Shown here: positions 2,877-7,568 of the stretch, piece by piece | Position numbering within the stretch: position 1 is the first letter of the stretch | Layout: each line of letters starts with the position of its first letter | Source of the DNA: Promethearchaeota archaeon | GTDB lineage: Archaea > Asgardarchaeota > Lokiarchaeia > Sigynarchaeales > SOKP01 | Assembly (NCBI GenBank): GCA_019894655.1 | Contig: JAGXNZ010000174.1 | Coordinates: 1-8,087, forward strand | DNA length: 8,087 nt | Direction: 5' to 3' | Program-made: the position numbers and the translations under genes | Notes under the pieces: model-generated | Seen by the model: only the letters and a program-made list of their open reading frames with translations | Database searches by the model: none | Told to the model about the DNA's origin: nothing

Positions 2877-3470
2877 TTACAAGTATCTTCCTGCGAAATC
2901 TTTACTATTTTTTTTCGCGCGGTCGAACATTTCGGGATTTGTAAATTCTAGCCTTAAAATCACATAATTTAGAACTTTCTTGAAAATATCGGCAATATCT
3001 TTTTGTGGATTTTGAATTTTAGAACAATAGTGAAATTTTATCTCTTTAGTTTTTTGAATTAAAACAAATTCATTAATGCTTCTCGATACGGGAGGATTTG
3101 TCTGCTCAATTAAATAAGGATCGGTTCCAACTAAGACTGCGATCCCATTAAAATTGAATTTATCACAGAAATTTTTATAGCTATTAAAATTTAGATTACT
3201 CATTACTTGATCATTATAAAGATTTACGGCAACAATAATCGCATCGAGTTTTTTAAGATTTTTAATATCATCGGAAAGATCTTCGAAATGAGTAAATTGA
3301 AAAATCTTCATTTTTAGTGGAACATTCTCGTAGATAAATTGAAATTCACTTTTCGAATCTTTAGATTTAGTTAATTCTGTTTTTTCTTTTAAATAATCTA
3401 AGATAATGTCAATTCTTGAATCATCAGTTCCTATTAAACCCAGATTTAAAGAAAAATGGAAACCCTTCAA
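2877..3470 (-). CDS. Ras-like small GTPase homologue without GTP-binding motifs (pseudo-GTPase)
   Basis: A 197-residue soluble protein whose strand pattern follows a Ras/Rab/Arf-type G domain. Beta-1 is LNLGLIG (8-14); a strand pair is EFQFIY/LKMKIFQF (42-59); beta-4 is LDAIIVAVNLY (75-85), like the usual DAIIVVFDL; beta-5 is GIAVLVGTDPYL (109-120); a last helix follows HYCSK (147-151), which sits where the SAK motif would be. Every nucleotide motif is altered: GxxxxGK[ST] reads GTDDSRID, DTAGQ reads QFTHF, NKxD reads TDPY. The register of beta-5 matches Ras numbering (VG at 114-115). It should therefore keep the fold but not bind GTP in the normal way, as a scaffold or adaptor. Expanded Ras-like families are typical of Asgard archaea. 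The start is TTG at 3470, required to keep beta-1; GGAAAG precedes it closely. The family call rests on pattern, without a search. Confidence 0.6.
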   Translation of the reverse strand: MKGFHFSLNLGLIGTDDSRIDIILDYLKEKTELTKSKDSKSEFQFIYENVPLKMKIFQFTHFEDLSDDIKNLKKLDAIIVAVNLYNDQVMSNLNFNSYKNFCDKFNFNGIAVLVGTDPYLIEQTNPPVSRSINEFVLIQKTKEIKFHYCSKIQNPQKDIADIFKKVLNYVILRLEFTNPEMFDRAKKNSKDFAGRYL

Positions 3471-4554: not shown

Positions 4555-5979
4555 TTACAAATTCCTTGAAGTAATAGATTCTAGTTCCTTAAAAATTGCA
4601 TCATCAATAGGTTTTAAAGAACTTTTCTCAGCTAGAATAGTCGCTTGCTCCTTTGCTCTTTTTCTTGCAGATTTAGACCCATTCTCTTTCCAAACTTCTC
4701 GAGACAGCCGATCTATTACCGGGCCAGCTAAAAAGAGCTCTTTTCTAAAAAGCTTTAAAGTTGTCGGATGGGAGAGTAATTCCTCTTTTTCATTGTAGTC
4801 CTTTAAAATTTCAGACGCGAATGGAGCACCGTGATCTTCTACACCTCTTAGAAGTCGCTTTACCATTCCTACAATTTCGTTATCAATTATTAATTTTTCA
4901 ATGCTTTGGGTGGACTCAAAATCTAGCATGCCAGGTCCCGAAGCCATATTAACGCCCGCAAGTCCCGCTAAAAGAGCTCCCATACCTCCTTCAAACCCTG
5001 CTTGAGCATCTGGAACTTTGGAGTCACTTAGACCCATGTAAGCATGAGTGGGCATTTTTAGAAATTTTCCCATTTCAACATCCCCCAAGTTAATCATCAT
5101 TGTCTCAATTGCTCCCATTGGAGTTGTACCTTGCTTCATATCTAATATTGCAGGTGATCCGCCCCATATTAGGGGGGCTCCCGTTTTTGTTAACTGTCCA
5201 ATTACAACTCCTGCTAAACATTCTGCAGAGTGTTGCGTTATTGAACCTATTAAGCTTATTGGAGCGCTAGCCCCTGCTAACGGCATAGATACAAACTCAG
5301 ATGGTATCATACTCTTGGCGGCATCGATAAGTGATTGAGAAGTCAGGTCTGACCATTTTAGCGGAGGACTAGGACAAGCATCGAAGATCGCTAAAGGTTT
5401 CCTTGCTAGTTCATCTTCTGATAAGCGACAGCTTAGCAATAATTCTCTCATAATTGAAAAGCTTTCCTTTCGAAATGTCCCTGTTACGACTGGTTTATAG
5501 CAATTAGAGAGTGCAATATATAACCTATGCCAATCTTGTGCCTGCGTGGGGACATCTTGATAAACAATAGCGGTGCTTTGAGCCTCGATATACTTTAAAT
5601 GTTCTACTACCTTTGAAAAACGCACGAAATCTTTTTCAAACGCGTTTCTAGTAGTCCCTGTATTTTCATCTAGAAATAATATCGCTGCTGAGCCAGGATC
5701 ATAATGAACATTATCGTTCGATAAAGTAATATGCTCTTTTCCTTCTCTATCAAATAATTTTATCTCATTTGGAACCGTTTTGAGACATCTATCTACTAAA
5801 TCAGAAGGAATATAGTATCGAGAACCCTCGTGATTAATTCCCTCGCTGTTAAATAATTCTTTCGCATCCTCATTTTCTAAAAATATTCCTAAATTTTCTA
5901 AAATATCTTTAGCCTCATTGAATATCTTTACTTTATGATCTTCATCTAAAACATTAATTCTTGGTCTTAATATTCCCAT
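4555..5979 (-). CDS. MttB-family corrinoid-dependent methylamine methyltransferase, non-pyrrolysine type
   Basis: A 474-residue TIM-barrel enzyme of the trimethylamine methyltransferase (MttB) family. It should transfer a methyl group from a methylated amine to the cobalt of a partner corrinoid protein. The N-terminus (LRPRINVLDEDHKVKIFNEA) has the family's usual opening. The middle has PLAGASAPISLIGS, then APLIWGGSPAILDM, and the C-terminal half carries the strongly conserved GLSDSKVPDAQAGFEGGMG (from residue 316). Archaeal MttB decodes an in-frame TAG as pyrrolysine; here the frame has no TAG at all and the gene ends with TAA. It therefore belongs with the non-pyrrolysine homologues, known to demethylate glycine betaine, proline betaine or carnitine. 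The exact substrate is unknown. It is the last gene of a three-gene operon, about 24 bp after the preceding stop. ATG 5979 is preferred; an in-frame GTG at 5991 is possible. Length is as in the family. Confidence 0.9.
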   Translation of the reverse strand: MGILRPRINVLDEDHKVKIFNEAKDILENLGIFLENEDAKELFNSEGINHEGSRYYIPSDLVDRCLKTVPNEIKLFDREGKEHITLSNDNVHYDPGSAAILFLDENTGTTRNAFEKDFVRFSKVVEHLKYIEAQSTAIVYQDVPTQAQDWHRLYIALSNCYKPVVTGTFRKESFSIMRELLLSCRLSEDELARKPLAIFDACPSPPLKWSDLTSQSLIDAAKSMIPSEFVSMPLAGASAPISLIGSITQHSAECLAGVVIGQLTKTGAPLIWGGSPAILDMKQGTTPMGAIETMMINLGDVEMGKFLKMPTHAYMGLSDSKVPDAQAGFEGGMGALLAGLAGVNMASGPGMLDFESTQSIEKLIIDNEIVGMVKRLLRGVEDHGAPFASEILKDYNEKEELLSHPTTLKLFRKELFLAGPVIDRLSREVWKENGSKSARKRAKEQATILAEKSSLKPIDDAIFKELESITSRNL

Positions 5980-6003
5980 CCTAATATACACACTCTCGTT
6001 TGG

Positions 6004-6891
6004 TTACTTCTCTAGTGAATCTATAAGTTTTCTCATTTGTTTTATAGTTGCTGGAGACGTTCCACAGCACCCTCCTACGATTTTAGCTCCTAGATGGATC
6101 ATTTCTCCTATATCAGTTACAAAATCCTTTATAGGTTGATCATAAACTGCAACATTATTACTGTTAATTCTTGGTTGGCCTGCGTTAGGCTTTATTGATA
6201 TTGGTTTATCAGTAAGAGGTTTCAATTCTTTTATTAAATCAACCATCTGATCACTTCCTAATGTACAATTTGCTCCGATTACGTCTACGTTTTGATCTTC
6301 CTGAAATTGGACGCACTTTTCTAAAGAATCTCCCATTATTGTATAAAAGCCTCTTTTCATTTTTTTATAAGTCATAGAGCTAATGATAGGTTTTTTTGAA
6401 ACATTTCTCACCGCCTCCAATGCTGCTTTCATCTCTTCAATATCTGACATTGTTTCTATATGCCATAAATCTACTCCATCTTCTAAGAAAGTAGCTTGCT
6501 TCTCAAAGCTAGAAATCCACTGATCTGGTGATGCTTTTCCAACTGGAGGTCTAAACTCACCAGAGGGTCCGATATCTGCAACAATTAAACGATTTGGAGG
6601 ACATGCTTTTTTTATATTTTCTAATCCGCCCAAGTTTATTTCTCTGATTCGATCTTCTAATTTATAATTCTTTAGGTTTATGAAACTTGAGCCGAAAGTG
6701 TTTGATTGACACATATCTGCCCCAGCATCGTAGTAGGACTTGTGAATATCGATTATCATATCGGTATGTTCGATATTGAGCGTATCAGGGAGTTTTCCCG
6801 GCATAATACCGCGTTTAAAAACTTCTGACCCCATCCCTCCATCAAACAGTATTATTTTGGAACTATCATTTAGCCAATCATGAAACAACAT
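6004..6891 (-). CDS. Homocysteine S-methyltransferase family protein (MetH N-terminal module-like / BHMT-like)
   Basis: A 295-residue cytosolic TIM-barrel enzyme of the homocysteine S-methyltransferase family, which uses a zinc-bound homocysteine thiolate to accept a methyl group and form methionine. The opening strand has FDGGMGSE (16-23). DAGADMCQSNTFG (55-67) is the classic substrate-side motif, and HIETMSDIEEMKAALEA (144-160) and GANCTLG (206-212) follow. The zinc cysteines are C209 and the pair C275-C276 in VGGCCGTSP. The protein stops after this domain: no folate-binding, cobalamin or activation domain of full methionine synthase is attached. The gene lies between the corrinoid-protein gene (29 bp upstream) and the MttB-like gene, so the methyl donor is probably the methylated corrinoid protein. 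Direct use of betaine, as in mammalian BHMT, is the alternative. ATG 6891 follows AGGTAAG, a weak SD. Confidence 0.88.
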   Translation of the reverse strand: MLFHDWLNDSSKIILFDGGMGSEVFKRGIMPGKLPDTLNIEHTDMIIDIHKSYYDAGADMCQSNTFGSSFINLKNYKLEDRIREINLGGLENIKKACPPNRLIVADIGPSGEFRPPVGKASPDQWISSFEKQATFLEDGVDLWHIETMSDIEEMKAALEAVRNVSKKPIISSMTYKKMKRGFYTIMGDSLEKCVQFQEDQNVDVIGANCTLGSDQMVDLIKELKPLTDKPISIKPNAGQPRINSNNVAVYDQPIKDFVTDIGEMIHLGAKIVGGCCGTSPATIKQMRKLIDSLEK

Positions 6892-6920
6892 AGAATCTTA
6901 CCTATAAATCCAATTTAATA

Positions 6921-7568
6921 TTATTTATTTAAGAGATTTTTAACTAATTTAACAGCTTCTACGGCACTACCAGCAAATCCATCAGCATTACATTCATCAG
7001 TCCACTCTTTTGTAACTGGAGCTCCTCCAATAATAACTTTAAAATTATCTCGAATCTCTCTCTCCTCTAAAATATCTATGATCTTTTTTTGACCATACAT
7101 TGTTGTAGTAAGCAAGGCAGAAACTCCTATTACGTCCGCATTTTTCTCAACTGCAGTTTGAATGATTTTTTCGGCTGGAACATCAGCACCAAGATCGTAG
7201 ACATCAAAACCATTAGCACTAAGCATGGTACCTACAATAGTTTTTCCAATAGAATGAATATCGCCCTCAATCGTAGCAATCACGACGACTCCTTGTGATG
7301 CAGAAATTCCACTCTCTTTCAAGCTTGGTAATAGAATATCCATTGATTCTTGCATAATAGTTCCACCAAGCATTAATTCTGGCAAGAAAAATTCTCCTTC
7401 TTCCCATAAGTCACCAATTCTTCGGATCCCGTCTCCATAACCCTTTTCGATGACCTCTAGCAAGTTCAATTCTTCAGTAACCGCTCTTTTTGCTAGTTCG
7501 ATTGCTAGCTCCTTATCTAAATTCACAATTGCGTCAGAAATTTCACCATAAAATTGCTCATGAGCCAT
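6921..7568 (-). CDS. Corrinoid (methyl-cobalamin carrier) protein of methyltransferase systems, MttC/MtbC-like
   Basis: A 215-residue cytosolic methyl carrier. Residues 1-88 form the helical cap domain (LWEEGEFFLPELMLGG at 54-69 is typical). Residues 90-215 form the Rossmann-like B12-binding domain with EGDIHSIGKTIV (101-112), whose H105 is the lower axial ligand of cobalt in the DxHxxG motif. GVSALLTTTM (148-157) and GGAPVT (181-186) contact the corrinoid tail. Length and order match the proteins that partner MttB, MtbB or MtmB enzymes and the cobalamin part of methionine synthase. It should shuttle CH3-Co(III)/Co(I) between the MttB-like enzyme and the homocysteine-type enzyme encoded after it. 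It is the first gene of the operon. ATG 7568 lies about 27 nt past a TATA box, so the mRNA may be leaderless. No gene for a reductive activase (RamA type), needed to rescue Co(II), is in the window. Confidence 0.93.
   Translation of the reverse strand: MAHEQFYGEISDAIVNLDKELAIELAKRAVTEELNLLEVIEKGYGDGIRRIGDLWEEGEFFLPELMLGGTIMQESMDILLPSLKESGISASQGVVVIATIEGDIHSIGKTIVGTMLSANGFDVYDLGADVPAEKIIQTAVEKNADVIGVSALLTTTMYGQKKIIDILEEREIRDNFKVIIGGAPVTKEWTDECNADGFAGSAVEAVKLVKNLLNK

Follow-up and report, generated by a model that had tools for sequence, protein, structure and literature searches.

The 8,087-nucleotide contig JAGXNZ010000174.1 of a Promethearchaeota archaeon (assembly GCA_019894655.1), referred to below as the window, carries a three-gene unit encoding a corrinoid protein, a stand-alone homocysteine-type methyltransferase (HMT), and a methyltransferase of the MttB family. 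The three genes are open reading frames (ORFs) on the minus strand, in that order 5' to 3', and are separated by 29 bp (corrinoid–HMT) and 24 bp (HMT–MttB; 12 bp if MttB starts at GTG). ORFs, Pfam matches, and gaps agree with the initial annotation, which had described a three-gene corrinoid module with gaps of 29 and about 24 bp. Evidence from the window is that of this one contig; genome-wide counts and activator data come from the genomes of relatives. The features are as follows.

6921–7568, minus strand: corrinoid (B12-binding) protein gene, first of the unit; 215 amino acids; PF02310 98.9 bits and PF02607 65.8 bits
7245–7262, minus strand: cobalt-ligand motif D103-x-H105-x-x-G108; aligned to MttC; invariant in 98 of 98 rows
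6004–6891, minus strand: stand-alone HMT (MetH module 3); 295 amino acids; PF02574 206 bits
6265–6267, minus strand: codon of zinc ligand Cys209; aligned to 1q7m; 98 of 98 rows
6064–6069, minus strand: codons of zinc ligands Cys275 and Cys276; aligned to 1q7m; 97 of 98 rows
4555–5979, minus strand: non-pyrrolysine MttB-family methyltransferase; 474 amino acids from the ATG at 5979; PF06253 (MTTB) 245 bits
4555–5991, minus strand: the same MttB ORF from an alternative GTG start at 5991; 478 amino acids
5029–5031, minus strand: Leu codon in the pyrrolysine column of MttB, no amber; aligned to the modified residue of 7xcl

The best solved relative of the HMT is the homocysteine module of Thermotoga maritima MetH (PDB 1q7m; 173 bits, E 8.5e-50). 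C209, C275, and C276, put forward in the initial annotation as zinc cysteines, fall on Thermotoga MetH's Asn-Cys and Cys-Cys motifs, whose cysteines are established zinc ligands of MetH. The exception among the 98 rows for C275 and C276 is a row that ends at a contig edge, and E146, T147, and N208 together with the three cysteines are conserved in at least 91 of these rows. The HMT matches PF02574 only, and the MetE-type catalytic domain of MesA–D (PF01717) is not matched. It also matches the NF005718 'betaine--homocysteine' model (165 bits, below the cut-off of 338), which speaks for a direct betaine–homocysteine methyltransferase (BHMT) with no need of a corrinoid protein. We give this possibility hardly any weight: BHMT chains score 35–39 bits against the window HMT versus 173 for Thermotoga MetH, the corrinoid protein and MttB are co-conserved with the HMT, and in Sinorhizobium the protein so labeled is reinterpreted as a split-MetH module (PMC12478193).

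The corrinoid protein consists of B12-binding (PF02310) and B12-binding_2 (PF02607) domains. Its best solved relative is MttC (7xcn_M, E 2e-45), in an alignment that spans the cobalt motif, and the MtgC, pyl_corrinoid, and MtbC models match it about equally, all below their cut-offs. The unit holds both the zinc-cysteine HMT module of a MetH-type synthase and a B12-binding module with D-x-H-x-x-G.

The third protein belongs to the non-pyrrolysine part of the MttB superfamily: it matches PF06253 and lacks an amber codon in the pyrrolysine column. It is about equally close to pyrrolysine MttB (7xcl) and MtgB structures, and its relatives include 2qne and 9yce. The window MttB carries Leu in the pyrrolysine column and Ser in the column of Methanosarcina MttB Tyr364; the role of pyrrolysine and that of Tyr364 as an assisting residue are taken from PMC9842639. 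Over 67 MttB rows of the operon clade described below, the pyrrolysine column holds Leu in 51, Met in 15, and Val in one. An Rfam match to PYLIS_3 at 4932–5029 (minus strand), above the gathering threshold, was rejected as a pyrrolysine signal: the model begins at UAG, the window reads in-frame CTA AGT, and the match therefore reflects homology to MttB coding sequence.

Scanning GTDB species genomes with an alignment built from 23 HMTs yielded 62 loci, of which 55 are from Asgard archaea (L001–L055) and seven from Marinimicrobia. A search for the same gene order in Asgard genomes, as the initial annotation had proposed, shows the complete trio on a single strand in 50 of the 55 loci, 48 of them full length and two (L035 and L049) with an MttB truncated by the end of the contig; contig ends also interrupt L023, L032, and L051, and L044 and L045 hold the HMT alone. 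The order deviates in L038, in which MttB comes first. The corrinoid–HMT gap is 17–41 bp, except in L037, L047, L048, and L052 (1–5 bp) and L053 (74 bp), and the HMT–MttB gap is −1 to 35 bp, apart from L038, L047, L048, and L053–L055, which have intervening genes or another order. Since the identical order recurs across so many loci, the arrangement is, on the evidence of gene order, not a matter of chance.

The three proteins covary in pairwise identity (Spearman coefficients over 49 Asgard sets including the window: corrinoid/HMT 0.90, corrinoid/MttB 0.87, HMT/MttB 0.90; within 39 Loki sets: 0.79, 0.67, and 0.68, respectively). The HMTs of the nearest loci, titled Lokiarchaeota, are 91% identical to that of the window. 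MttB in L004, L006, L008, and L011 is 91–93% identical to the window's and the corrinoid protein and HMT only 73–77%; the corrinoid–HMT pair seems, from these identities, to have been exchanged together. A second HMT paralogue (37–39%) occurs in L223, L225, L227, L229, L231, L236, and L237. It is left out of the system because no corrinoid gene adjoins it; its neighbors in L225 encode PAC2, HD-domain, and ThiF proteins, with similar-sized genes at the other paralogue loci.

Co-occurrence was followed in 227 Asgard genomes, mostly incomplete metagenome-assembled genomes (MAGs). A MetE core was called strong at 60 bits or more, MTHFR was scored as absent where the match had an E of 7e-5 or worse (six cases), and genomes are called 'Loki', 'Heimdall', or 'Hod' from the titles of L001–L055 where a genome maps to one of these. 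Matches were found to MttB in 156 genomes, MtrH in 149, the MetE core in 59, MTHFR in 156, HcyBio in 101, and RACo in 141. An HMT is present in 92, as a stand-alone protein in 84 and in longer frames only in eight. MttB occurs in 83 of the 84 genomes with a stand-alone HMT, in none of the eight with a long-frame HMT, and in 73 of the 135 without an HMT. All eight long frames pair the HMT with Pterin_bind, and seven carry B12 domains in the same frame as well; that of G079 is split over two frames. The long-frame gene of G125 is followed by a MetH-type reactivation protein (ACT; 20.7 bits, below cut-off) and MTHFR, a classical, folate-fed arrangement, and G093 has both HMT kinds, stand-alone and pterin-joined. 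Because MttB goes with the stand-alone and not with the pterin-joined HMT, one HMT–corrinoid core in the Asgard phylum seems, judging by gene content, to be combined with either the pterin module or MttB. This pattern, with ACT as an extra partner in many loci, lends support to the split methionine synthase suggested in the initial annotation.

The absence of MetE and MetH from the same genomes was a check proposed alongside that suggestion; weak MetE-like matches are taken up below. In 48 Asgard genomes every HMT frame is 291–317 amino acids long, and none of these genomes therefore holds a full MetH. A MetE core of at least 60 bits is found in two of the 84 stand-alone-HMT genomes (G036 and G092) versus 15 of the 135 without an HMT. 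MtrH was not found in 40 of the 84, and 36 of these 40 are also without MTHFR and without a MetE core of at least 60 bits; conversely, 39 of the 46 MttB genomes without MtrH carry a stand-alone HMT. No pterin-binding module (PF00809) that could serve as methyl source and no MtgD-type pterin subunit occurs in the unit. Pterin-domain proteins of ~290 amino acids were considered as folate methyltransferases and rejected, as all 16 strong Pterin_bind proteins from 20 HMT genomes were typed as DHPS (NCBIfam). Ten weak PF00809 matches sit in frames of 523–566 amino acids; L184, the only one of them assigned a type, is DHPS-like (TIGR00284). PF00809 is unmatched in G001, and only weak matches occur in the single-contig chromosomes G029 and G041.

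The families, metal-site residues, gene order, co-occurrence, and missing alternatives described here are features of the sequences themselves. They make it likely that the unit is a split cobalamin-type methionine synthase, in which MttB relays a methyl group via the corrinoid protein to homocysteine. MttB would take the place of the methyl-folate module of methionine synthase and move a methyl group from a donor, probably already activated and most likely a quaternary amine, to the Co(I) of the corrinoid protein. The zinc-dependent HMT would bind homocysteine on zinc and take the methyl group from the corrinoid protein, giving methionine for protein and S-adenosylmethionine (SAM). Slippage to Co(II) would be rescued by a separate activator, which in MtrH-lacking genomes may be a MetH-type reactivation protein, usually beside the HMT, and in most MtrH-bearing genomes a RamA/RACo-type protein encoded elsewhere. 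Which way the methyl group moves, which molecule accepts it, that the donor is an amine, and that no pterin step takes part are inferences. As one homocysteine is consumed per methyl group, the unit would suit methionine supply rather than bulk methylotrophy.

Both kinds of activator, reactivation-type and RamA/RACo-type, are named for B12-dependent methionine synthases in PMC5764234. A reactivation domain or RamA-like activator, one mark of a split MetH, was found in relatives and not in the window. ACT, a protein of 217–244 amino acids assigned by PF02965 or by BLAST to two members, has a homologue in nine of the 62 loci, and PF02965 itself is matched in seven of those nine genomes, several below cut-off. 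The gene order is corrinoid-HMT-MttB-ACT in L039–L042 and corrinoid-HMT-ACT-MttB in L047, L048, and L054, and opposite-strand genes separate ACT from MttB in L053 and L055. The L054 ACT scores 39.9 bits against PF02965, those of L039–L042 are weaker or below cut-off, and those of L047 and L048, which have no PF02965 match, were placed by 50–51% similarity to L054. With a profile of the nine ACTs, the PDB yields a single entry, 1j6r 'methionine synthase' (E 3.6e-7), which has an R-x-S-P-G-Y stretch in common with them, and the predicted ACT structure has a mean pLDDT of 82.3. The opposite-strand genes between ACT and MttB in L053 (12012–14639) encode a B12-binding/glutamate-mutase-E-like protein and a protein of the octopine/nopaline dehydrogenase family, and genes of similar size occur in L055, L203, and L208.

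In 40 further stretches the stand-alone HMT adjoins ACT in 24, with a corrinoid gene in 22 of these and a same-strand MttB in 17; five of the 24 end at contig edges, and L205 (G061) and L238 (G039) are without MttB in the stretch. Genome-wide, ACT was found in 34 of the 40 stand-alone-HMT genomes without MtrH (that of G045 is just a match below cut-off, located outside the operon). Among the 44 with MtrH, ACT was found in none and RACo in 34. Over all 84, ACT occurs in 34, RACo in 38, and both in two. Corrinoid methyl relays are reversible in principle, and the HMT might instead demethylate a methylated sulfur compound, with the corrinoid protein handing the methyl group on. Such catabolic use is very improbable: no MtrH is linked to the unit in L001–L062 and 40 of the 84 genomes lack any (CoM methyltransferases were not searched for genome-wide), and the MetH-type reactivation partner indicates methionine synthesis.

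The HMT might also serve a thiol other than homocysteine, the unit then being a demethylase with an unusual sink. The PF02574 family covers enzymes with other thiol or selenol acceptors as well, and weak MetE-like proteins, present in 15 of the 50 genomes of one search, could be the actual methionine synthase. We consider this improbable, as the HMT is nearest to the homocysteine module of Thermotoga MetH and retains E146, T147, N208, and the three cysteines as described, a MetH-type reactivation protein adjoins it in many loci, and 66 of the 84 genomes have no PF01717 match.

A further reading keeps the split MetH and feeds it with pterin: methyl-tetrahydromethanopterin (methyl-H4MPT) or methyl-tetrahydrofolate (methyl-THF) would enter the corrinoid protein through an MtrH encoded elsewhere, MttB being an extra entry, as in the logic of Ruegeria MtgBCDE. 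MtrH and MTHFR are each matched in 44 of the 84 HMT genomes, and mutants of R. pomeroyi in the pterin gene mtgD require methionine (PMC12478193). However, 40 of the 84 genomes lack MtrH, 36 of them lacking MTHFR and a strong MetE core as well. An MtrH- or MtbA-type gene consistently beside the operon in relatives, named in the initial annotation as what would speak against its proposal, was not seen: one MtrH query gave no match in the ORFs of L001–L062, and, of the 156 Pfam families in 91 neighbor clusters, the 25 commonest include neither PF02007 (MtrH) nor PF01208 (the MtbA family). The linked acceptor gene of an MttB–corrinoid–MtrH/MtgA or MtbA system was thus not found within this scope. 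At three Loki MtrH loci (L257–L259), MtrH stands beside another corrinoid protein or none, not beside the HMT–MttB unit. As an account of the unit in general, we regard the pterin-fed route as rather unlikely; it can hold in MtrH-bearing genomes alongside an MttB-loaded relay elsewhere. Our confidence concerns the MttB-to-homocysteine relay, with which the pterin-fed route overlaps; the latter may operate additionally in MtrH-bearing genomes.

Several observations weigh against an MttB-fed methionine synthase. MtrH-bearing HMT genomes, mainly Lokiarchaea, include the single-contig Loki chromosomes G029 and G041, and methyl-pterin could therefore reach the corrinoid protein in these and the other 42. 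MetE-like matches occur in 18 of the 84 genomes, 16 of them weak (26–36 bits), and a divergent core methionine synthase is possible behind them. In the MtrH-lacking genome G092, the unit sits on a contig of 4.94 Mb, and MTHFR and a MetE-like protein of 66 bits are present as well. Fourteen of the 84 show neither ACT nor RACo, G061 has an HMT without any MttB match, MttB of G039 lies on another contig, and the HMT-only loci L044 and L045 break the three-gene pattern. The homocysteine-making protein HcyBio was not found in 40 of the 84 (39 of these without MtrH), other homocysteine routes not having been searched for. Because incomplete MAGs make up most of the set, the absence of a gene from any one genome says little; a pattern shared by 40 genomes carries more weight. 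Both Marinimicrobia genomes searched carry, beside MttB–HMT, a frame of ~1195 amino acids with HMT and reactivation domain, that is, a full MetH, and the MttB–HMT unit is therefore an addition there and not the sole methionine synthase. MttB adjoins the HMT in L056–L061, with RACo, DUF1638 (in five of six), and the corrinoid gene on the opposite strand and, in several, GcvT and amine-oxidase-like genes upstream; this unit is perhaps tied to betaine breakdown.

For a split methionine synthase loaded by MttB, the term 'folate-free' of the initial annotation is well supported by gene content in the MtrH-lacking genomes (Heimdall/Hodarchaeal where titled); in Lokiarchaea, where most of the 44 MtrH-bearing HMT genomes belong, it may or may not apply. 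Whole Asgard lineages (Heimdall- and Hodarchaeia, perhaps Lokiarchaea) might do without a pterin route altogether, with the MttB–corrinoid–homocysteine unit as sole synthase, protein and SAM dependent on a methylated compound, and one MttB clade with a fixed donor. We put this broader proposal at somewhat under an even chance.

A quick tree of 103 MttB sequences of 430–540 amino acids, subject to a long-branch warning, places 67 operon MttBs in one clade (SH-aLRT 99). The other sampled Asgard MttBs, including four second MttBs near an HMT, fall outside, and Marinimicrobia lie next to the clade (92). Within the clade, 138 of 474 positions are conserved in at least 98% of rows, 44 of these in less than 20% of other MttBs. 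Conserved residues such as H312 and W272 differ in the aligned 2qne and give no substrate assignment; a substrate call from such residues was dropped, as the comparison set held no characterized MttB with known substrate contacts. A second, distant MttB (25–31% identical) lies directly upstream of the corrinoid gene in L013 (1–513), L015 (7741–9180), L016 (2859–4298), and L017 (818–2188), which suggests that more than one donor enzyme can load the same corrinoid protein. Separately, Asgard MttB-family matches at G007:C194:196–1635, G124:C22:126659–128095, and others read through TAG, TAA, or TGA stops, for which pyrrolysine, decay, and assembly error are all possible.

Elsewhere in the window, minus-strand genes at 2877–3470 and 1991–2716 encode proteins without a Pfam family above cut-off. 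They resemble two neighbor clusters of 18 and 17 loci and look like part of a conserved Lokiarchaeal neighborhood. The public record P0001, 'Candidatus Nanopelagicaceae bacterium', carries a 92% identical HMT and is probably a mis-binned Lokiarchaeal contig.

To our knowledge, methionine synthesis usually ends folate metabolism, the known exceptions being MetE-type core synthases and BHMT. A MetH-type enzyme with a demethylase where the folate module normally sits would be wired in a new way. Asgard archaea are the closest relatives of eukaryotes known, and the distribution of such an enzyme among them would bear on one-carbon metabolism near the origin of eukaryotes, offer a concrete answer to where the methyl groups of Asgard MttB go, and make the missing methionine synthase of many MAGs testable. 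No description of the Asgard unit was found among the open-licence papers that literature searches listed, judged by titles and abstract starts. The parts and the modular idea are already known, and the pterin-less, one-unit archaeal version appears to be new. For Atabey- and Freyarchaeia, THF or H4MPT is suggested as the acceptor for MttB (PMC11291895), and the word homocysteine was not found in the main text of that paper.

The closest known counterpart is bacterial. The initial annotation had contrasted the unit with MttB-type systems that deliver methyl groups to coenzyme M (CoM) or THF; this contrast needs correcting, since an MttB-type demethylase is already linked to methionine in marine bacteria, there with a pterin subunit. 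According to PMC12478193 (2025), R. pomeroyi draws on MtgC and MtgD for betaine demethylation as well as for methionine synthesis; MtgB is the MttB-type donor module, MtgE the homocysteine module, and mutants in mtgC or mtgD require methionine. The gene mtgE lies away from mtgBCD in the marine groups shown there, and all of MtgBCDE are colocalized in S. meliloti. A three-part synthase with RamA-like activation is described for Phaeobacter (P. inhibens) in PMC5764234. As in these systems, separate HMT (MtgE, PF02574), corrinoid (MtgC, PF02310), and MttB-type (MtgB, PF06253) proteins would join demethylation to methionine synthesis in Asgard archaea, with RamA-like activation as a further likeness. 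However, Ruegeria requires the pterin subunit MtgD for methionine, whereas no pterin subunit was found in the typed Asgard genomes; the Asgard HMT, corrinoid protein, and MttB form one unit, and many members have a MetH-type reactivation protein.

The unit shares with MetH an HMT module with the zinc cysteine triad, the B12 cap and Rossmann domains, and, in part of the Asgard relatives, the reactivation domain. Unlike MetH, it has MttB instead of a pterin-binding module, and every module is a separate chain. Desulfitobacterium hafniense MtgBCA and the methanogen methylamine systems likewise combine a non-pyrrolysine MttB (MtgB) with a cognate corrinoid protein, but their acceptor enzyme leads to THF (MtgA) or CoM where the Asgard unit has an HMT (PMC12478193). 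MesA–MesD resemble the proposed synthase in making methionine without folate, from a corrinoid protein as predicted for MesA–C (PMC7857596, a paper whose main text lacks the words MttB and Asgard). Those enzymes belong to the MetE type (PF01717), with a predicted use of MtrA or CoFeSP, whereas the Asgard enzyme is a MetH-type HMT beside a corrinoid protein that MttB would load.

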